Origin: a virus
Length of the DNA: 34,577 nt
IMG/VR virus record: IMGVR_UViG_3300004807_000009
Location: 1-34,577 of that record
Direction: 5' to 3' (one strand)
The first letter of the stretch is position 1; the number at the start of each line of letters is the position of its first letter. Positions 2,528-34,577 of this stretch are shown here, one piece after another. The notes under the pieces were generated by a model, which did no database searches, was not told the origin of the DNA, and worked only from the letters and a program-made list of their open reading frames with translations. The translations under genes were made by a program, and so were the position numbers.

Positions 2528-2605
2528 TCAATCCTTTAATAAAATAATTGCAATAATGCACACTAAGGCAAATATTAACCATATTTTAAACACTTCATCA
2601 TCCAC
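2528..2605 (-). CDS. tiny membrane peptide with GTG start (25 aa)
   Basis: A GTG at 2605 with AAGGA 8 nt upstream opens a 25-residue frame ending at 2528, one base before the next gene's ATG (2526). The peptide has an acidic N-terminus (DDEVFK), a hydrophobic segment of about 17 residues and a KD tail, so it should cross the membrane once. It overlaps the end of the 58-residue gene by 8 nt. It may modulate the holin, as small antiholin-type peptides do, but that is speculation. Confidence 0.45.
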   Translation of the reverse strand: MDDEVFKIWLIFALVCIIAIILLKD

Positions 2606-2774
2606 GCACAATATCCTTTTTGGTACGTTCTTCAGTTATTGTTCTTGTTATTTTGAATCGTATTGGTTTGGGTTTTTTGGTTAATTGACGTATTTCCCAA
2701 TTTAAAAACAAAATATAACCCCAAATAAACAATTCAAAAATAAATACGGTAAACCAATATTTTGTCCAATTCAT
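2598..2774 (-). CDS. small membrane protein, basic C-terminal tail (58 aa)
   Basis: ATG 2774 overlaps the stop of the upstream gene in an ATGA. The 58-residue product has an aromatic membrane segment at about residues 6-25 and then a strongly basic tail (RQLTKKPKPIRFKITRT), so the tail should face the cytoplasm. It lies between a coiled-coil membrane protein and a 25-residue membrane peptide in the lysis block. No family recognised; participation in lysis is an inference from neighbours. Confidence 0.6.
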   Translation of the reverse strand: MNWTKYWFTVFIFELFIWGYILFLNWEIRQLTKKPKPIRFKITRTITEERTKKDIVRG

Positions 2775-3431: not shown

Positions 3432-5767
3432 TATTTTTGTTTTCCAAATTCTAAAAAGTCTTTAATCATAGTCATTTTTTGTGCATTTTTTCTTTTTTCT
3501 AAAAGGTTTTTGCCAATCATTGTTGCACCACTTACAATTGGAGCTGGAACTCCTGTAATTAATCCAGTTAATGCTGTTTCTCCACCCATAGTAGCTAATG
3601 CCGCCAATAGACTTGATGATGTTCCACTAGGATTTGTAGTATCTCTAGGAATTGTTTGTAAATCTTTAGTAACTTCATTAAGTGTTCGATAATGCTCGGC
3701 ATTTTTTTTGCCAAACAATAAATCTAATTTATCACTTTTATCTAAAGCAGATATTACAGAATCTAAATTTCTTGTATTAACATAAGGTTTTCCGTTAATA
3801 TCTAATTGAACTCCATTAGTTGCACGATTTTTAATATGTTGAGCAACATGACCACGCAATTCATTTTTAATTGTTTGTCCTTCAGGCCCTAATTCATCTA
3901 AAACATTAAACAAATGAGTAATATCTTCTGCCGTTCCTTTAATCATTACTTTATCGTTAAGATCAGCTAAAGCATTTTTATATTCTTTTCCTGTTTTACC
4001 AATAATATCTTGCACAATTGAATTGTCATTAAATTTATCATTTAATTTAATATTTTCATCTCTTGCTAAACGATAATTTTCACCACCCTTACCTTCTGTA
4101 ACTGCATCAATTTGTTTATTAATTTCTTTTGCAAAATGACCGTTTGTAGGTGAACTTTGAGATAAAGTATTATTTAATTTTCTAATTTCTTCTAAATCAT
4201 TAATTGTTATATTGCCTTCTTTATCAAGAAGTTTTTTTAATTTAACTTTTGCACTTGTAATTACTGGCGCATTTATTTCTTCTGCCTCTAATGAATCTAA
4301 ATATTTTTGTACTGGCGCAGCATTTACTAATTCAGCAGTTTCGCCTTCTGCTTTTGCTTTGTTATATGCTGTTTCAACTTTTTGTTTTTGTGCATCTCTA
4401 GCTTTTTCTACTGATGTACGCAACATTTTACCTACTGTTGATGGTTGCGCTTCAGTATATTCTGCTCCAGTTTCATGAACCAAGTGATCTAAATTTTGCT
4501 GTATTTTGGCATTATCATTTGCGTACTTTTCTTGAAATAATTGTCCAAATACAGGATCTTTAGTAGTTTCTCTAGCAAATCTAACATCGGCAGGATGTCT
4601 TGTTACTTGGCTACGTTCTAATTCAATTGGAATTGGTAATTCATTTGCTCTAGCAATTCTTAATGCTCCCTGATCTAATTCGGCTGCGCCTACACTTCTT
4701 AAATTTGGGTTTTCCGCAGGGTTTATATCAACTAAATCTTTTGCTTTATTTTTAATATTTTCAAATTGTTCATTTAATTTAATTTTTGTATTTTCTAATG
4801 CTGGAGAAATTGCTTCTGCACCAGCCGTAACAGATTTACCCAAAATAGGTGCTAATTTAATACCTGCCGCATTAGCAAACCATGAAATATCTTCTTTAGG
4901 TAAACCTGTTTGCTGAGCAATATAAGAAATCGGTTTGTCAGCATATTGACCTATAGTGTCCAATATCTTTGTTGCAGCTTCTGCTTTATAAACTGGGTCA
5001 TTAGTGATTCCAAATGCTTTACCTAATGGTTTACCCATATAATTTTCTACACGGTTTAATGCTTCTTGTGCAGTTTTTCCATCTCCAAATGTATCAACAA
5101 GTTTAGCAAATGGTGTAGCAATAAATTTACCTGCGCCCAATAATCCACCATAAGCAACATCAGCTTTAGCTGCTATGTCTTTACCAAGAAAACTTGGATT
5201 AGTTAAATTGTTAAAAGTGTTTTGTAAAGTATCTTTAGTTGAAAGTTGTTCTTGCGCTGATGGTTCTTTATTAGATTCAATATTTGGGTCTAAATATTTT
5301 TTAAAAGGCAAATTTACTTCATTATTATCTGGGCTTTCAGATGTACCCCTTATTTCAATTTCTAAAGGTGGTGAATATTTTGGATCTAAAACTGTGTGAA
5401 CTGGGTCTGCTTTTCCTAATGGCCGATGTAAACCATATTGGTTTAAAAATTCTTCTGGAACTTCAGTAGATATATCAGCAGCATCTGTATGAAAATATTC
5501 TTTATCAGGATATTTAGAAGGATCAATAGGCATATAAATGCCTTTTTCACCACGTTTATGCCTATTATATAAATCTTGTTGTTCTGCTCGTGACCTTACT
5601 TTGCTAGTAATAGGTAAATCTTTACCATATTGTTCTTTATAAGCAGATTGCGCTTGTTCTAACCTTGATGCTAATTCAGGATTTAATTGAGCATTAGGAT
5701 TGGCTTCAACAACAGGCTTATCTGTAGATAAATAACTATAAGCTGGCTTAACAAGGTCATCAACCAT
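3431..5767 (-). CDS. large ejection protein with N-terminal M15-type peptidoglycan peptidase domain
   Basis: Encodes 778 residues. Residues about 28-128 resemble D-Ala-D-Ala carboxypeptidase/endopeptidase (M15/VanY/CwlK-like) domains: KVRSRAEQQDLY at 57-68, FHTDAADIS at 92-100 and DPVH at 121-124, which give plausible zinc ligands His93, Asp98 and His124. The rest is mostly helical, with a hydrophobic Ala/Gly stretch near 715-752, as in P22 gp16-like proteins injected with DNA. It is the last and largest of three ejection-type genes. Expected role: carried in the virion, ejected first, opening the peptidoglycan and helping form the DNA channel. The enzymatic assignment is by motif; P22 gp16 equivalence is by position. 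Confidence 0.75.
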   Translation of the reverse strand: MVDDLVKPAYSYLSTDKPVVEANPNAQLNPELASRLEQAQSAYKEQYGKDLPITSKVRSRAEQQDLYNRHKRGEKGIYMPIDPSKYPDKEYFHTDAADISTEVPEEFLNQYGLHRPLGKADPVHTVLDPKYSPPLEIEIRGTSESPDNNEVNLPFKKYLDPNIESNKEPSAQEQLSTKDTLQNTFNNLTNPSFLGKDIAAKADVAYGGLLGAGKFIATPFAKLVDTFGDGKTAQEALNRVENYMGKPLGKAFGITNDPVYKAEAATKILDTIGQYADKPISYIAQQTGLPKEDISWFANAAGIKLAPILGKSVTAGAEAISPALENTKIKLNEQFENIKNKAKDLVDINPAENPNLRSVGAAELDQGALRIARANELPIPIELERSQVTRHPADVRFARETTKDPVFGQLFQEKYANDNAKIQQNLDHLVHETGAEYTEAQPSTVGKMLRTSVEKARDAQKQKVETAYNKAKAEGETAELVNAAPVQKYLDSLEAEEINAPVITSAKVKLKKLLDKEGNITINDLEEIRKLNNTLSQSSPTNGHFAKEINKQIDAVTEGKGGENYRLARDENIKLNDKFNDNSIVQDIIGKTGKEYKNALADLNDKVMIKGTAEDITHLFNVLDELGPEGQTIKNELRGHVAQHIKNRATNGVQLDINGKPYVNTRNLDSVISALDKSDKLDLLFGKKNAEHYRTLNEVTKDLQTIPRDTTNPSGTSSSLLAALATMGGETALTGLITGVPAPIVSGATMIGKNLLEKRKNAQKMTMIKDFLEFGKQK

Positions 5768-7257
5768 TATTGAAATTTACCTTGTTCTAAACGGTGAATA
5801 TTTTCATATTTTTGATCAAATTCTTTTCTTTGGTCTTTTGGTATGGAATTATAAATTCTGCTAATTTCTTCTTTCTTTTTCGCTTCAGGTAATGATGATA
5901 TTGCAATACTATCCATTTGAAATATTCTAGTATCGTAATTAGACATAAATGTTGACTTGTAATTATTTGTATGAATAGATCCGTTTACTTCACCGTACTT
6001 ATCTCTAAATTGTTTTAATCCTTTGGTATAAGCATCTTGCGCATAAGCAACTGCACCAGCTCTTGAAATAATATCTTTTAAAGCACCTTCTGTAATATCT
6101 TTACTGCCTGATACTACTTGTTGATCTGCTCTTGCTTGATCTGTTGTTGCTTTACCAAAAGTATCCGCATTTGATAAATAAACACGCATAATGTTTTTTT
6201 CTAATTTATCTGCTGTTTCGCTACCAAAAACACCTCTTACTCCACCACGCAATACTTGGGCAGGTTTGTTACCAAAAGCTGCGCCAAGATTTTCATAAAC
6301 ACCATTTATGTTTTGTAATTGTTCTTTAGATTGCGCTTGTTGTGCTGTATTTGCACTAAACTCTTTTTGTCCATTTTCATATAAGGGTGTTTGATAATCA
6401 TTTAATTGCATTTGTGATCCGCCTGGACCTGTGTAATCAAATGTTTTATCCATTTGTACAAGTTTTGGATGCGCAGGATTTACATTAGCATTTGGTTGCA
6501 TACTTTCTTGACCTGTTCCAACTTGTATTAATTTTCCTTCATTATTAACAATGTATTTATTCCCTTTAACATCAACAATTTGTTTAGGAATCTGTTGCTC
6601 ATATTGTGTGCCTGGTATTGCTTGACCTTGTGGCACATTTGAAAATGGATTTGTATTTACCGTTTGCCCACCAGCACCTGTATTTACTGCAATACCTGAT
6701 GGTGTTAATGCAGATGTTCGTGACTCAGGTGTCAAACCTAAAATATGACGTTGTTTTAAATAATCTTGTAAATGTGCAGGATCATTTTGTGCAATATCAA
6801 TGTAAGGTTGAATTAATTTAACAGCTGTTTGTTGATCAATTCCTGCTTCTTGACCTTGTTGAATACCCCATTTCGTAATATTTTGAACCAATTTATTTTT
6901 ATCAATTTTTGTTGGATCTTTAGCGGCTTCTACAACCATCGGATCAAATATTTTAGAAACATAACCATTTGCTATTGCTGCTTGTTTTTTTGTATTTAAA
7001 TCAATTCCGCTTGATTCAGTAGATTGTTCTTTTGTTTTTGCTTCTAATGGTGCTATTTGTTCTGCTAAATTTGCTTCAATTTGTGATTTTTTGGAACGAG
7101 CTTGTTCACCAGCAATCATAGCTGGATACAATTCTTTGAGTTTTAATAACTCATAAGAAGATTTTTGTAAATTTAACATATCAGCTAATGAAATATTTTT
7201 TTGCGGTTGAGCAGTTTTATAAATATCACCACTAGCTACGTTTGCAATTTCTGGCAT
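5767..7257 (-). CDS. internal virion/DNA ejection protein (P22 gp20-like position)
   Basis: Encodes 496 residues. The N-terminal 100 residues form a long amphipathic helix rich in K, E, Q and A; the middle is low-complexity (N, Q, G, P); the C-terminal third is helical again. This matches the design of P22 gp20-type ejection proteins, which leave the capsid with the DNA and help it through the envelope. It lies between the gp7-like and gp16-like genes, the P22 order 7-20-16. AAAGGA stands 6 nt before the ATG, and its stop overlaps the next start (TAATGG). Sequence similarity is weak by eye, so the call leans on gene order. Confidence 0.65.
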   Translation of the reverse strand: MPEIANVASGDIYKTAQPQKNISLADMLNLQKSSYELLKLKELYPAMIAGEQARSKKSQIEANLAEQIAPLEAKTKEQSTESSGIDLNTKKQAAIANGYVSKIFDPMVVEAAKDPTKIDKNKLVQNITKWGIQQGQEAGIDQQTAVKLIQPYIDIAQNDPAHLQDYLKQRHILGLTPESRTSALTPSGIAVNTGAGGQTVNTNPFSNVPQGQAIPGTQYEQQIPKQIVDVKGNKYIVNNEGKLIQVGTGQESMQPNANVNPAHPKLVQMDKTFDYTGPGGSQMQLNDYQTPLYENGQKEFSANTAQQAQSKEQLQNINGVYENLGAAFGNKPAQVLRGGVRGVFGSETADKLEKNIMRVYLSNADTFGKATTDQARADQQVVSGSKDITEGALKDIISRAGAVAYAQDAYTKGLKQFRDKYGEVNGSIHTNNYKSTFMSNYDTRIFQMDSIAISSLPEAKKKEEISRIYNSIPKDQRKEFDQKYENIHRLEQGKFQ

Positions 7258-8451: not shown

Positions 8452-9104
8452 TATGTAGCCTGTGTCTGTGCCGTCAAAATGCCGTTAGTAAATGTCATAC
8501 TGCCATTAGTACCGCCACTAGTTAATTTAGCAGTTGTTATCGTTACCGTTAATCCACCTGATATATCTGTGTAAGGAATAGTAGTAGAAGCTGTAAATGG
8601 TGATGTGCCGTTGCCTTTAAGATAACCAGTAAGGGTTATTGCACCTGATCCGCCTGACGGAACACCCAAAGTTCCAGCCAAACTTACTGCGCCAGTTGAT
8701 GCTGTGCTTGGAGTTAACCCAGATAGCGTAGTTACAAAAGATGTAACACCTGTATTGGCAATAGTTACATTACCAGTTGCGCTAGATACACTAATACCAG
8801 TTCCTGCAATATTAGATAAAACACCTGTATTTGCTACAGAAATTGTACCTGCACCATTAGTAATGCCAATGCCTGAACCATTAGACAAAGTATTTAAATT
8901 ATAGGTTGAGCCATTACCAATTAATAATTGACCATTAGTCGGTATTGCAGTTGTACCTGTACCGCCTGATGATGGAGCTATTCCTAAAGAAACCGAAATA
9001 CCTATTGTAGTAGGATTTTGTAACCATAACAACCAAGGCAAGGATGGTTTTTGTGTAAATTGGTCTAAAAAAGGCGCATTAGGAAAATTAATATTAGTGT
9101 TCAC
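8451..9104 (-). CDS. short tail fibre/needle-position protein with fibre repeats
   Basis: Encodes about 217 residues from GTG 9104, chosen because AAGGTGAG lies just upstream; GTG 9113 is an alternative. A hydrophobic, proline-rich N-terminus (SLPWLLWLQNP) is followed by Gly/Thr/Ser/Asn-rich beta repeats. The block GYLKGNGTSPFTAS recurs in the 439-residue fibre gene (13266-14585). It lies directly after the gp10-like gene, where P22 encodes the tail needle gp26, but the sequence is beta-repeat, not the gp26 coiled coil. Role in the tail tip is inferred from position and composition. Confidence 0.65.
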   Translation of the reverse strand: MNTNINFPNAPFLDQFTQKPSLPWLLWLQNPTTIGISVSLGIAPSSGGTGTTAIPTNGQLLIGNGSTYNLNTLSNGSGIGITNGAGTISVANTGVLSNIAGTGISVSSATGNVTIANTGVTSFVTTLSGLTPSTASTGAVSLAGTLGVPSGGSGAITLTGYLKGNGTSPFTASTTIPYTDISGGLTVTITTAKLTSGGTNGSMTFTNGILTAQTQAT

Positions 9105-26147: not shown

Positions 26148-26416
26148 TAGCAATTCCAATTCTTTAATGATGCTTTGGCTCTTGATGCATCGCCTTTAGC
26201 GTGTTTAACTACACCTTCCATCCTTGCACAAAATGATTTCTTACGGCCTTCATCTTTTTCTGTTTTAGGATGTGGAGCTGGTGCTTTTAGGTTGCTACCG
26301 TTCTTTGCATTGTATTCAGCACGACCTTTGGCAGTCATTCCTGCCCCCTTATCTGTAGGGTTATAAGTCTTGCCCTTGCCAGTAGTTTTTTTGGGGATTG
26401 GTTTATCGTGTGCCAT
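26147..26416 (-). CDS. small basic conserved phage protein (KSFCARM family)
   Basis: Encodes 89 residues, strongly basic. The features KGAGMTAKGRAEYNAKNGSNLK and GRKKSFCARMEGV match a family of short phage proteins with a conserved SLKxP...RRKSFCARM pattern (often listed as DUF6321) of unknown function. It is encoded between a GroES-like gene and an overlapping gene pair, upstream of the terminase genes. Charge suggests nucleic acid binding, possibly in the virion or packaging; not proven. Confidence 0.75.
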   Translation of the reverse strand: MAHDKPIPKKTTGKGKTYNPTDKGAGMTAKGRAEYNAKNGSNLKAPAPHPKTEKDEGRKKSFCARMEGVVKHAKGDASRAKASLKNWNC

Positions 26417-26715
26417 TATGCGATCTCCTGTTCAAAACATACATCTTGCCATGACATGATTAAATATCGTTCGTTATCTTCAAAATATTCTTGAAACTTT
26501 AAATACTCATCATTACCCATTGTTCCAAATCTGACAAATGAACCCACGCTTATAGGCATAGGCTCTCTTTTGCCATTAGGTAACTTTTTACCAGGGCCAA
26601 CTGCCACAACCGTTCCCTGATTATCCTTTTCATCCATAATGACATGGATTAACTTGGATTTTACTCGTTCTATTGGTTTTACGACAATCTTGTCGTGCAT
26701 TGGTTTAAGCTGCAT
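26416..26715 (-). CDS. GroES-like co-chaperonin (Cpn10)
   Basis: Encodes 99 residues, the size of GroES (97). The start QLKPMHDKIVVKPIER aligns with the GroES start, GTVVAVGPGKKLPNG with the central strand and hairpin, and ISVGSFVRFG and YLIMSWQDV with the later strands. The mobile loop that contacts GroEL seems shortened by about four residues (KLIHVIMDEKD). Phage-coded co-chaperonins (T4 gp31 is the known case) refit host GroEL to fold coat protein. No GroEL gene is present, so it must work with the host one. It overlaps neighbours at both ends. Confidence 0.88.
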   Translation of the reverse strand: MQLKPMHDKIVVKPIERVKSKLIHVIMDEKDNQGTVVAVGPGKKLPNGKREPMPISVGSFVRFGTMGNDEYLKFQEYFEDNERYLIMSWQDVCFEQEIA

Positions 26716-29858: not shown

Positions 29859-30057
29859 TGTTTCCCCTTTTGAGTATGTTGAACTGCTTAATTATTTCCT
29901 GCTCTAATTCTGCTCTTGCAATCTTACCTCTTTTTTCTTCAACTAAATCTAAATATTTTCTTCTTTGTTTTAATTCAGTTTTAAGAGTTGATGTCGCTTC
30001 ACAAATAGCACGAAATCTTTCAGATTTTTTATATTCCATAACGTGCGAATTGTCCAT
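29851..30057 (-). CDS. small charged helical hypothetical protein
   Basis: Encodes 68 residues from ATG 30057, with AGGA 9 nt upstream. It begins inside the end of the homing endonuclease gene. Content is mainly K, E, R and L: EYKKSERFRAICEATSTLKTELKQRRKYLDLVEEKRGKIARAELEQEII, a long helix with possible heptads. Its stop overlaps the ATG of the two-span membrane protein. Function unknown. Confidence 0.6.
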   Translation of the reverse strand: MDNSHVMEYKKSERFRAICEATSTLKTELKQRRKYLDLVEEKRGKIARAELEQEIIKQFNILKRGNNE

Positions 30058-30517
30058 GATATTTATTCCTAGCTTCAATTGCGGCTAATTCTGCTAATTC
30101 TATATCTTTATAATAACCTATGTGTATTTTTTGTTTATTGATTTGTATTTGAACACACCATTTATTTTTTTTCCAATTTACGTTTTTAATTTTAGATTTA
30201 TTGATTGTAGATAATTTTCTGTTGCAAGCATTTTGACTTTTAGTGGCTGGTCTTAAATTTTCTATTAAATTGTTAGATGGATTTCCATCAATATGATCTA
30301 AAAATTCTGGCAAATAACAGTAGTGCATCATAAAAATTAATCTATGTGCTAAATACTTTTTTTTGTTAATAGTTATAAAACAATAACCATTATGCCAAGT
30401 TCCACAAATTGTTCCCTTGTGAATTTTATAAGAAGGTTTTATTTTCCAATAAAGTTTACCATCTTTATATTTAAAGATAGATTGTAAATATTCTTGAGTT
30501 ATAATTTGTTCAGCCAT
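30029..30517 (-). CDS. HNH homing endonuclease with AP2 DNA-binding domain
   Basis: Encodes 162 residues. N-terminal strands lead to AHRLIF (57-62) and FLDHIDGNPSNNLIENLRPAT (72-92), the HNH_3 core with His75 and Asn residues. The AP2-like domain is at about 110-156 (VNWKKNKWCVQIQINKQKIHIGYY...). Free-standing HNH/AP2 endonucleases are selfish genes that copy themselves between phages. The gene is more AT-rich than its surroundings and overlaps the next gene by 29 nt, suggesting it arrived by insertion. It has its own leader hairpin at 30550-30577. Confidence 0.9.
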   Translation of the reverse strand: MAEQIITQEYLQSIFKYKDGKLYWKIKPSYKIHKGTICGTWHNGYCFITINKKKYLAHRLIFMMHYCYLPEFLDHIDGNPSNNLIENLRPATKSQNACNRKLSTINKSKIKNVNWKKNKWCVQIQINKQKIHIGYYKDIELAELAAIEARNKYHGQFARYGI

Positions 30518-30549
30518 ATCAATTCCTCTTAAATTGTGGTGGTTAGAAG

Positions 30550-30577
30550 CCCTATAAGAACGCCAATTCTTATGGGG
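30550..30577 (-). promoter_or_regulatory. structured 5' leader hairpin (copy 2)
   Basis: CCCTATAAGAA pairs with TTCTTATGGGG with one internal mismatch, around a 6-nt loop, 33 nt before the endonuclease start. On the - strand it is followed by CTTCTAACCA, as is the hairpin at 26986-27019, although the stem sequences differ. On the + strand it is followed by a T-rich tract and might also end rightward transcription. Regulatory leader is preferred because of the shared flanks. Confidence 0.55.
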
Positions 30578-30594
30578 TTTTGTTTATTTTAACA

Positions 30595-30687
30595 TCAAAT
30601 CCATAAACATAATAACAACACAATAACTAAACCTATAATTATTGTATCTAATAACTTTTCAAAATCTTTAATTTCTTTACTGCTCAT
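30595..30687 (-). CDS. tiny membrane peptide (30 aa), doubtful
   Basis: ATG 30687 opens 30 codons ending at 30595. Ten charged residues (SSKEIKDFEKLLD) are followed by a strong hydrophobic segment of about 16 residues and a Trp-Ile end, a typical one-pass peptide. No ribosome binding site is evident before it (CCTAGCCGAAT), which lowers confidence. It lies directly downstream of the candidate structured RNA, so its translation could depend on that structure. Confidence 0.35.
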   Translation of the reverse strand: MSSKEIKDFEKLLDTIIIGLVIVLLLCLWI

Positions 30688-30689
30688 AT

Positions 30690-31110
30690 TCGGCTAGGGT
30701 TTGTAGATGTTGAAGGCAAAATAGTCCTATCCGAGTAAGACTATTATTCGTCTGAGGGATGCTTTAGTCTCAGTCAAAATAGATAAATGGTTGTTGTGCT
30801 TGTTCAGGTCTAGTATTACCAAGTCTACCACGATATTCCACCAATTAAGGTCTAGGACAGTTCCCAATCTCTAATGCTATCTATCACACTAGGTGGGGGC
30901 TTTCGCCATGCGCTTCTGAAGGGTGTTGATTTGCCTATAGTAAGGTTAATCAACGGTTCGCATTTACTGACTCAACTCTATAGAGATCAGGCTATGTCAA
31001 GCCATATTCAACTGGGCTAGTTAGGTTGGCAATTTGACGACCATAAAGGTCATTACCAGCCCATGTGAATAGAGCCTGATTATCAAAGTGCCAACCCTGA
31101 CAATTACATC
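30690..31110 (-). ncRNA. candidate structured non-coding RNA downstream of the regulator gene
   Basis: About 420 nt without a credible gene, in a genome where other gaps are under 160 nt. It is less AT-rich than the flanks. Stems: 31089-31096 with 31024-31031 (8 bp), 31073-31080 with 30986-30993 (8 bp), 31056-31063 with 31013-31020 (8 bp, one G-U), 31048-31053 with 31037-31042 (6 bp, one G-U), 30948-30954 with 30925-30931 (7 bp), 30887-30892 with 30871-30876 (6 bp, one G-U), 30739-30745 with 30720-30726 (7 bp), and a GGC-GAAA-GCC tetraloop at 30898-30907. The G-U pairs and the GAAA loop exist only if the - strand is the RNA. Helix 1 crosses helices 2 and 3, a pseudoknot. It follows the regulator gene on the same strand, so they may share a transcript. 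Family not recognised. Confidence 0.6.
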
Positions 31111-31362
31111 TTAAACTACTTTATTATTTTCTGCAAGTTCAGGCCACACAAAAAAATACGTTTTAGGAAATAAATCCTTTCTAGTGACCAATCCATGTGA
31201 TTCTTTTTCTAACAATGCAGCCAAAAACAACAACTGACCATGTGGAATACCTCTAGATCGCCATTGCGTTACTGCTGGGGGAGCTACGTTACATAATTTT
31301 GATACCCTTTTTGTGCCACCTAACAACTCAATAATTTGGTTGTCTGAAAAATGTACTTTCAT
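31111..31362 (-). CDS. Cro/YdaS-like HTH regulator
   Basis: Encodes 83 residues from ATG 31362 (the upstream TTG at 31365 is not needed). Residues 8-39 are the HTH: IIELLGGTKRVSKLCNVAPPAVTQWRSRGIP, with the Q-W-x2-RGIP end of Cro/YdaS-type repressors. LVTRKDLFP and FVWPEL near the C-terminus are also typical of this family. It is transcribed away from the recombination operon and sits beside the shared promoter region, so it most likely represses or switches those promoters. No integrase or CI-like protease domain is seen. Confidence 0.85.
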   Translation of the reverse strand: MKVHFSDNQIIELLGGTKRVSKLCNVAPPAVTQWRSRGIPHGQLLFLAALLEKESHGLVTRKDLFPKTYFFVWPELAENNKVV

Positions 31363-31392
31363 CAATTAACTTTCGTTGTTATATTTTTATTT

Positions 31393-31467: not shown

Positions 31468-31483
31468 CATAAAGGGGAAATTT

Positions 31484-32933: not shown

Positions 32934-33680
32934 ATGATTGTTACACAAGAAAGTAATTCAGCACATTGGTACACAAAAGATGGCCAGCCTAGCTATACAC
33001 GCATGGGCAAAAATGGAATGTTTCGCAATACAACGCTTAGGGATGCAAAAAAAGAAGGGTTGCTTCCATCTGTAACTACGATTATTGGATGCCTAGCCAA
33101 GCCTGGATTAGAACGCTGGAAACAAGAACAAGTCTTACTTGCTAGTCTTACCTTACCACGCAATGATAACGAGCCAGAAGCCGATTGGTTGACACGAGTA
33201 ATACAAGATTCACGATCCACAGGTAAAGATGCAATGGAACGTGGTACTAATATGCACAACATATTGGAATCATATTTTAACCAAGAGTTTATGCCTGAAT
33301 ATCCTGATTATGTTAGACGCACAGAAAAAAAATTAAGAGATCATTTTGGCGATCATTTTTGGAAACCAGAGCAATCGTTTGCACATCCATTAGGTTTTGC
33401 AGGTAAGGTCGATTTACACTCGGAAGAAGGCATAGTGGTTGATTTTAAGACGAAATTATCCCTTGAAAACGCTGCCGTCTATTCTGAACATATTTTACAA
33501 CTAGTTGCTTATGCACATGGGTTAAATATGCCAAGAGCTAGATGTGCAATTGCATTTGTGTCCGATGATGATACGCAAATCCACGAAATAGATGAAAATG
33601 ATTTACAACATCATTGGAAGATGTTTCAATGTTTAGTAACGTATTTTAAATTAAAAAATAATCTCAGTCTGGGGGAGTGA
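32934..33680 (+). CDS. RecB/Cas4-like PD-(D/E)xK exonuclease
   Basis: Encodes 248 residues from ATG 32934, with TAAAGGGGAAA upstream; the longer frame from 32880 starts in the regulatory gap. Active-site residues in order: His108 in MHNILESYF, Glu148, Asp160 in GFAGKVDLH, Asp170-Phe-Lys172 in IVVDFKTK, and Gln189-x3-Tyr193 (QLVAY). This is the RecB-nuclease family pattern. It likely resects double-strand ends to make single strands for ERF and SSB. No iron-sulphur cysteines are seen, so it is not a typical Cas4. Confidence 0.88.
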   Translation: MIVTQESNSAHWYTKDGQPSYTRMGKNGMFRNTTLRDAKKEGLLPSVTTIIGCLAKPGLERWKQEQVLLASLTLPRNDNEPEADWLTRVIQDSRSTGKDAMERGTNMHNILESYFNQEFMPEYPDYVRRTEKKLRDHFGDHFWKPEQSFAHPLGFAGKVDLHSEEGIVVDFKTKLSLENAAVYSEHILQLVAYAHGLNMPRARCAIAFVSDDDTQIHEIDENDLQHHWKMFQCLVTYFKLKNNLSLGE

Positions 33681-33719
33681 GCTTTACCCCCTTTAGCTCC
33701 TTCACAACTCTCCCAGACT
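33666..33719 (+). terminator. nested inverted repeat at the end of the nuclease gene
   Basis: AGTCTGGG (33666-33673) pairs with CCCAGACT (33712-33719), and inside it GGGGG can pair with CCCCC (about 33671-33691). The two foldings share bases and exclude each other. The first arm includes the last codons of the nuclease gene. The T-rich stretch after it (CCTTTATG) is weak for an intrinsic terminator, so it may also be a protective 3' structure or an operator. Confidence 0.4.
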
Positions 33720-33779
33720 ACCTTTATGTCGCATTTTTGCAAAACCACTAGGGATAAACCCTAATTATGCAAATATTTG

Positions 33780-33808
33780 TTGATAAATTAACAAAACTTA
33801 ATTATTCT
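33780..33808 (+). promoter_or_regulatory. candidate promoter for the last early genes
   Basis: TTGATA (33780-33785), 17 nt, TATTCT (33803-33808), then a leader with TAAAGGGGAA before ATG 33839. A small dyad TAGGG-ATAAA-CCCTA (33749-33763) lies upstream and could bind a regulator. The matches are four to five of six. Confidence 0.45.
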
Positions 33809-33838
33809 GTATTTGTTGTTTAACTAAAGGGGAATTAA

Positions 33839-33925
33839 ATGCAAACATTTATTGAAGCAGTAATAGGAGTTTTAGTAATTGCAGGGCCAGCTATGATTAT
33901 GTGGATTATTCAAAGGGGATGGTAA
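33839..33925 (+). CDS. tiny membrane peptide (28 aa)
   Basis: ATG 33839 has an excellent ribosome binding site (AAAGGGGAATTAA). The 28-residue product is hydrophobic over residues 4-24 (FIEAVIGVLVIAGPAMIMWII) and ends QRGW. Its stop TAA overlaps the next start (TAATG at 33925), so it is translationally coupled. The combination of promoter candidate, strong binding site and coupling makes it a likely gene; role unknown. Confidence 0.65.
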   Translation: MQTFIEAVIGVLVIAGPAMIMWIIQRGW

Positions 33926-34360: not shown

Positions 34361-34577
34361 CCACAGAAAAATTGGCACAATTAATTGAAGATGCACACCC
34401 AAGAGGTTTTGTAAAAGATGCTGCTGATTTGTTACGACAACTTCAGGCAGAGTTAGATGATTGTAAAGCGCAATTAGTTTTACAAAAAAATGATTTGTTT
34501 GAAATATTATGTGCTTTAGGTAAAGCAAACCTAACAGATGAGGAAATAGAATCTGCGTGGTTTAAAGTTTTTAAACC
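34357..34577 (+). CDS. 5' part of the small hypothetical protein that wraps the junction
   Basis: Starts at ATG 34357 (ATGA overlap with the previous stop) and runs off the contig end. Continued at position 41 (because 34538-34577 equal 1-40) it ends at 122 for a total of 100 residues. The N-terminal 73 residues are helical (KLAQLIEDAHPRGFVKDAAD, LRQLQAELDDCKAQLVLQ) with a likely coiled coil, and the C-terminal part is basic. Function unknown. Confidence 0.75.
   Translation, partial: MTTEKLAQLIEDAHPRGFVKDAADLLRQLQAELDDCKAQLVLQKNDLFEILCALGKANLTDEEIESAWFKVFK
34538..34577. repeat. 40-nt terminal repeat, identical to bases 1-40
   Basis: The last 40 bases equal the first 40 bases exactly. One open reading frame continues smoothly across the join, with matching start and stop overlaps on both sides. 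This is what an assembler leaves when it closes a circular or circularly permuted molecule, so the length without the duplicate is 34,537 bp. Confidence 0.95.

Follow-up and report, generated by a model that had tools for sequence, protein, structure and literature searches.

The stretch of DNA analysed here (the window) comprises the entire virus record IMGVR_UViG_3300004807_000009, 34,577 bases in length. A 40-base direct terminal repeat (positions 1-40 and 34538-34577) suggests that the record is likely a complete, circularly assembled genome. In its coat protein (phrog_283), portal (phrog_156), head-closure proteins, ERF and SSB, the phage resembles a P22-like podovirus. It also encodes a GroES co-chaperonin (26416-26715, minus strand; phrog_3188, 9e-12). 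The locus under study begins with a minus-strand regulator gene that matches Pfam YdaS_toxin and P22_Cro, both under the curated cut-off, and a PHROG transcriptional repressor (1.9e-12). A gene-free stretch follows it directly, then the ORF of a short membrane peptide and an HNH_3/AP2 gene (Table 1); ERF, SSB and exonuclease genes adjoin the locus. An ORF homologous to the membrane peptide (MNSKDIKNFEQKLDRIIIVLVMILFFFLWI) lies immediately 3' of the RNA in two related contigs (L042 and L043), with a similar ORF in a third (L044). On the plus strand, a strong terminator-like hairpin (15 bp, then GTTTATTTTA) occupies 30546-30581, where no plus-strand gene is known.

Table 1. Features of the RNA locus and its flanking genes in window coordinates.
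Feature	Position	Strand	Basis or remark
HNH_3/AP2 gene	30029-30517	-	downstream of RNA
30-aa membrane-peptide ORF, MSSKEIKDFEKLLDTIIIGLVIVLLLCLWI	30595-30687	-	begins at RNA 3' end; frame read by eye
RNA2, 3' module, EGFOA-like (type A)	30687-31000	-	conserved in relatives; sub-threshold Rfam EGFOA
3' hairpin AAUAGUC/GACUAUU	30720-30745	-	compensatory in L004 and L006 (AUCCUA/UAGGAU)
Outer helix GUGGU/ACCAU enclosing CUUG/CAAG hairpin with conserved loop GUAAUACUAGACCUGAA	30787-30831	-	covariation
CUAGAC, 3' half of proposed core pseudoknot	30808-30813	-	boxes complementary by reading
Hairpin ACC-UUAAUU-GGU	30840-30851	-	3 of 4 pairs covary, A versus A'
Box GUCCUAG, 5' half of proposed core pseudoknot GUC(C)UAG x CUAGAC	30852-30858	-	GUCCUA invariant, 12 core sequences aligned
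GGC-GAAA-GCC hairpin	30898-30907	-	read directly; A' counterpart GGCA...UGCC
RNA1, 5' module, alpha type	31001-31104	-	common to A, A', B and C type loci; covariation; ~105 nt in window
H1 3' strand UGCCAACCU	31023-31031	-	within hairpin loop
Inner hairpin H5, GACC/GGUC	31039-31051	-	predicted fold; relatives' equivalent hairpin read by eye
H3 5' strand GGGCUGG	31056-31062	-	partner 31020-31014
H2 5' strand GCUCUAUUCA	31066-31075	-	partner 31010-31001
H1 5' strand GGGUUGGCA (pseudoknot)	31089-31097	-	partner 31031-31023
Candidate -10 TAAGAT	31108-31113	-	overlaps Cro-like gene stop codon; position conserved in relatives
Candidate -35 TTGCAG	31131-31136	-	read from sequence; inside 3' end of Cro-like gene
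Cro/YdaS-like regulator gene	31111-31365	-	directly upstream of RNA

An earlier note, made from the sequence alone, had described positions 30690-31110 as about 420 nt without a gene and proposed a large structured phage RNA. The gene-free length held (about 420 nt and not 590, as the membrane-peptide ORF follows directly), and the borders were adjusted to about 31104 (start) and 30687 (end) on the minus strand, giving an RNA of ~415-420 nt. Between 30517 and 31111 the ORF list has no entry that reaches 50 aa, and no reading frame runs uninterrupted through the region, all six being broken by stops. The note's statement that all other gaps are under 160 nt was nearly right (the ORF list has one other gap, of ~220 nt, at 33680-33901), and its minus-strand GGC-GAAA-GCC motif was confirmed as a hairpin. 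The region is indeed GC-richer (42% vs 29% in the left flank, 33% in the right flank and 36% in the entire window), and only 4.5% of 421-nt windows are equally GC-rich. The minus strand folds better than its dinucleotide shuffles (z -2.9, 0 of 100 shuffles reaching it); the plus strand does not (z -0.4).

The RNA consists of two modules, here termed RNA1 (5') and RNA2 (3'), the latter occurring as type A (the window), A', B and C, and also as A'' and D. Comparison of relatives shows that RNA1 is a long hairpin whose loop pairs with the first nucleotides of the transcript, forming the pseudoknot H1. Across 17 sequences of the alpha type, 93.7% of H1 cells pair in register and compensatory changes are found in 5 of 10 pairs, against 0-1 in slid registers; when strands were swapped between alpha sequences, the mean helix score fell from 8.6 to 5.0 and 0 of 222 swaps reached the sequences' own mean. 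H1 is likewise supported in a second form of RNA1, beta, which has a different sequence and the same topology: 17 distinct 8-mer pairings average 7.5 of 8 pairs (shuffled 5.7, maximum 6.5), with compensatory changes at 7 of 8 positions. The hairpin stem is equally constrained: H2 is 97.1% paired with both-side changes in 6 of 10 pairs, and H3 is 100% paired with one pair covarying and two varying by G-U. Jointly, 98.3% of H2/H3 is paired, 7 of 17 pairs covary, and neither the paired fraction nor the covariation score was matched in any of 500 shuffles. In beta there is also good support for a further contact of the loop, H4 (own 6.96 vs swapped 4.80), and B-type alpha sequences support it too; in the window's own RNA1 it is not supported and would be short at best. 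The RNA1 hairpin and pseudoknot are conserved in structure far more than in sequence. Types A', B, C and D have a terminator-like U-run directly behind the RNA1 stem; the window RNA1 has none.

RNA1 and RNA2 together are 86-99% identical in four viral contigs (L002, L004, L006 and L007), and the RNA is better conserved than the Cro-like gene next to it (96% vs 74% identity in L007, 86% vs 69% in L006). In the RNA2 core, the loop boxes GUAA and UAGACCUG are invariant among the 12 sequences aligned. The strands of the outer helix (30831-30827 with 30791-30787) are 100% paired with 2 pairs covarying; this helix and the hairpin after the first box contain 5 pairs that covary between A and A', and 97.9% of their cells are paired, with covariation in both helices. 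At the position of the window's 3' hairpin, A' carries a CCUAUC-U(A/U)CG-GAUAGG hairpin. By reading, box GUC(C)UAG is complementary to box CUAGAC in nearly all cores, with the variants GUC(C)UAU x AUAGAC in A' (G-C to U-A) and GU(A)CUGU x ACAGAC in A''. We propose that the two boxes form a conserved core pseudoknot missing from the Rfam EGFOA model, an addition that rests on few supporting events. Altogether, because of covariation, conservation above that of the adjacent gene, a promoter-like site of its own and the absence of coding, we conclude that 31104-30687 on the minus strand is a real, conserved structured RNA and not a protein gene. This is shown by comparison, without any transcript having been observed, and it bears out the large structured RNA proposed in the earlier note.

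No Rfam family matched the window at the gathering threshold. In a permissive search the best sub-threshold match was EGFOA (RF02955; 23.8 bits vs a cut-off of 37.7), at 30898-30787. The window RNA shares with EGFOA two conserved boxes, GUCCUAG (30858-30852) and GUAANN(C)UAGACCUG, or GUAANNCUAGACCUG (30819-30805), the hairpin after the first box and the outer helix enclosing a hairpin with a conserved 17-nt loop; the EGFOA copies found here also sit in phage-like gene neighbourhoods. It differs in that the window, like A and A' generally, lacks an extra short hairpin that in EGFOA sits within the outer helix, ahead of the hairpin with the loop, and in that it carries RNA1, which was not recognised at the true EGFOA loci examined; moreover, the Rfam model leaves some three quarters of the conserved RNA uncovered. 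When a two-box pattern from the window RNA was scanned across 2.9 million viral contigs and ~85,000 genomes, the hits beyond the window RNA's own family comprised three viral loci (L009-L011) and a genome locus (L012) that exceed the EGFOA cut-off, at 57-69 bits, and L013, which falls short of it at 26.3 bits. An A'-like module (L177) scored 29.1 bits, and the A' loci L038 and L047 had no EGFOA match at E 10. The relaxed core pattern also hit coding sequence; these false positives (L060, L061, L063, L065, L072-L074, L076, L078, L080, L083, L084, L087 and L088) served as controls, and none of those scanned had an EGFOA score. A covariance model built from A and A' only (R1) did not match EGFOA significantly (17.5 bits, E 0.32, in L013; 14.8 bits, E 1.7, in L012), and its listed L009 match falls outside the EGFOA site of that locus. 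Because the score lies under the cut-off and the extra hairpin is absent, though boxes and helices are common to both, we file the window RNA2 as related to EGFOA and not as a member. The earlier view that the RNA belongs to no recognised class therefore held only partly, since its 3' part has the conserved core of EGFOA. Ornithinibacillus halophilus (L056) contains two EGFOA RNAs in opposite orientation (6436-6587, minus strand, and 8739-8886, plus strand), 2.2 kb apart and surrounding RuvC and MazF-like genes.

The modular make-up of the RNA is absent from the earlier note, as it was not visible to its reader, and came from relatives. A sequence pattern around the EGFOA hit identified six viral contigs with the window's element, and the regulator protein used as a query gave 16 loci. 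In regulator loci of 74-90% identity outside the A type, the slot is often filled otherwise, for example by a different RNA in L035. In L025-L030, L033 and L034 (regulator 76-90% identical), the RNA is absent and a gene that, from our reading of the sequence, we take to be PAPS-reductase-like starts directly after the regulator. A pattern from the 5' part retrieved 12 further contigs in which RNA1 precedes other 3' modules. Eight coding loci (L014-L021) that matched the 5' pattern GTTGANTCAGTAAANGCGA were discarded. A looser core pattern added about 15 A' loci, most of them with beta RNA1, and a beta pattern retrieved 109 contigs. The modules behind beta RNA1 were C-like (at least 25), B-like (at least 28), A''-like (11) or D (at least 8), and a few contigs had RNA1 without a recognisable RNA2. 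In L102, L105, L122, L131 and L182, a pyrimidine-rich stretch takes the place of RNA2 behind beta RNA1. In a podovirus genome from Manatee Spring (MW202674, L051), a B-type RNA2 follows an RNA1-like fold of yet another sequence. Comparison thus shows that RNA2 is exchanged between phages behind RNA1, as A, A', A'', B, C or D, and the two modules recur in more than 100 freshwater viruses of bacteria. The D modules of L167 and L141 are Rfam Betaproteobacteria-1 RNAs (RF02932; 106.7 and 93.5 bits, cut-off 49.4), so that EGFOA-like and Betaproteobacteria-1 RNAs share one slot behind RNA1. The latter is likely an alternative module with a like role, although it has no evident similarity to the window RNA2; its model has no match in the window and is matched only by D-type relatives. 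Types B (L042, 2310-1980, minus strand) and C (L049, 1719-1380, minus strand) have no Rfam match at E 1, and each looks like another undescribed RNA family.

The promoter-like pair before the window RNA (TTGCAG-17 nt-TAAGAT) is a weak match to consensus and was missed by the promoter scan, which did list the equivalent in L042 (TTGCAA-16-TATAAT). Of 79 distinct beta-type contexts, 75 have a TATA(A/C/T)T hexamer no more than 20 nt upstream of RNA1, compared with 1 of 711 control windows, and the hexamer is retained in 31 of the 33 beta contexts that lack a Cro-like gene end. Because this -10-like hexamer is present also behind unrelated genes, the RNA is likely its own transcription unit, with the caveat that no transcript was observed. 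A', C and MW202674 have promoter-like sites and a palindrome (TTAAGNNNNCTTAA) between RNA2 and the next gene, and in several of those loci the palindrome is also found upstream of the Cro-like gene; we infer that it is probably the Cro operator. The RNA of these loci would then be a unit between two regulated transcripts, and a mere leader is disfavoured there because the downstream genes carry operator- and promoter-like sites of their own. Perfect copies of the palindrome between RNA2 and the next gene were recorded at L038 873, L047 95, L066 2099, L049 1270 and L051 3247.

Large structured RNAs of phages are a known kind, exemplified by GOLLD and ROOL, large pseudoknotted RNAs of phages and prophages with poorly understood function (PMC12286853). 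The window RNA is also phage-encoded, large and pseudoknotted, but it is shorter than many GOLLD RNAs (~415 nt vs >800), no tRNA occurs in the window, and the exchanged part in its family is the 3' module. The GOLLD, ROOL, HEARO and OLE models, the first three of which the earlier note had named for comparison, found no match, either in the window at gathering thresholds or in 30500-31200 at E 10. The put/antitermination RNAs of lambdoid phages are structured, lie at the start of an early transcript and are next to the Cro gene. The window RNA is likewise structured and adjacent to a Cro-like gene, at what would be the start of an early transcript; it is much larger, and an RNA family conserved in its own right makes up its 3' module. 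No antisense target was evident in the phage's own genome, the longest complement being 11 nt and not above shuffles (mean 12.1). Weak Rfam matches such as mir-929 and Srn266 were judged to be chance, as were 39-nt matches to Bacillus phage HNH sequences, which lie within a coding gene.

By a modest margin, we favour the reading that the gene-free stretch of this P22-like podovirus is transcribed independently into a modular, structured noncoding RNA. What it does is our best guess, inferred and not shown: an early RNA, trans-acting or scaffolding, in which the 5' module stays constant while the 3' effectors can be swapped. RNA polymerase would start at about 31104 and make RNA1 and RNA2 as a single transcript; RNA1 would cap, protect, process or stabilise the 5' end, or recruit or bind a common partner; and RNA2 would be the effector early in infection, working in trans or serving as a scaffold of RNA or RNP. 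Modules of different families would be interchangeable because all serve one purpose, directed at different hosts or rivals. Several points weigh against this proposal. No transcript has been observed, the window's promoter hexamers match poorly, and, given the U-run that follows RNA1 in types A', B, C and D, RNA2 is possibly made only by read-through. The next ORF of the window starts at the RNA 3' end, leaving a cis role possible there; no partner or effect is known, so that trans action and the effector role are guesses; and, as stated, the A and A' covariance model has no significant EGFOA match.

A bolder reading, to which we give a slight preference over its negation, is that of an undescribed class of modular phage noncoding RNA, in which an RNA1 of constant architecture and hypervariable sequence, with its own promoter, is joined to interchangeable, unrelated 3' modules (the EGFOA-like kind, Betaproteobacteria-1 and two or more undescribed families). 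If true, RNA families catalogued apart would be functional equivalents in one freshwater podovirus system. The exchangeable layout and RNA1 itself appear to be undescribed; an earlier description remains possible, as our search did not cover the EGFOA and Betaproteobacteria-1 literature. This question is relevant because large structured phage RNAs with unknown function are an open problem: when several RNA families occupy one slot in one phage group, the job of the slot must suit several folds, and the arrangement makes function testable through module swapping. In the window lineage, moreover, the 108-nt Rfam motif is extended to an RNA of ~415 nt.

The rival that survives best, and remains possible, is a cis-acting leader or attenuator: RNA1 would be a regulated intrinsic terminator, with H1 and H4 forming or breaking as the signal, that gates polymerase from the Cro side into RNA2 and the left early operon, in a position comparable to the lambdoid put/antitermination sites. 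The U-run that types A', B, C and D carry right behind the RNA1 stem, the location between the Cro-like gene and early genes, the window membrane-peptide ORF beginning where the RNA ends and the conservation of RNA1 structure well beyond its sequence all speak for it. Against it, what lies behind RNA1 is entire unrelated structured RNAs and not one kind of gene, the genes that follow in A', C and MW202674 carry the operator-like and promoter-like sites described above, and true EGFOA occurs in other contexts (the second, plus-strand copy of O. halophilus faces minus-strand genes).

A replication-origin transcript, in which the RNA or an R-loop would prime or regulate replication and module swaps would reflect replication incompatibility, is unlikely. 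The cumulative GC skew has its minimum at 31468, beside the RNA; related RNA2 families are found near DNA polymerase III (L010), primase (L013, and after the primase in Acidovorax phage AP1) and RuvC (L012); and ERF, SSB and exonuclease genes are adjacent in the window. However, the skew minimum is confounded, as it coincides with a flip in gene orientation, the EGFOA of L009 and L011 precedes terminase, and no replication data stand behind this reading. The origin or control transcript that the earlier note had left as an alternative is neither shown nor excluded.

We consider it very unlikely that the RNA is an intron or another self-splicing or mobile RNA associated with the nearby HNH endonuclease. 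An HNH_3/AP2 gene does lie downstream, and phage HNH genes often travel with introns. Yet no group I or II intron or self-cleaving ribozyme model of Rfam matched the window at gathering thresholds or the RNA region at permissive settings (related modules likewise), in L002, L004, L007 and further contigs the gene directly downstream of the RNA is DUF7696-like or of another kind instead of HNH, and the RNA is located between genes, not within one. Finally, a hidden frameshifted protein gene, suggested by a short open stretch in one frame (VEYRGRLGNTRPEQAQQPFIYFD), is all but excluded by stops in every frame, by indels between types that are not multiples of three and by compensatory substitutions that keep base pairs rather than codons.

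Further stretches of this sort were seen in relatives. In L036, positions 4222-4560, 3' of a related Cro-like gene, form a different structured-looking stretch without Rfam match at E 1, followed by an HNH gene. In MW202674, a hairpin-rich gene-free stretch (2590-2720, plus strand) lies between the end of the Cro-like gene and the RNA1-like fold, and ends in a terminator-like hairpin (AACCCATT...AATGGGTT).
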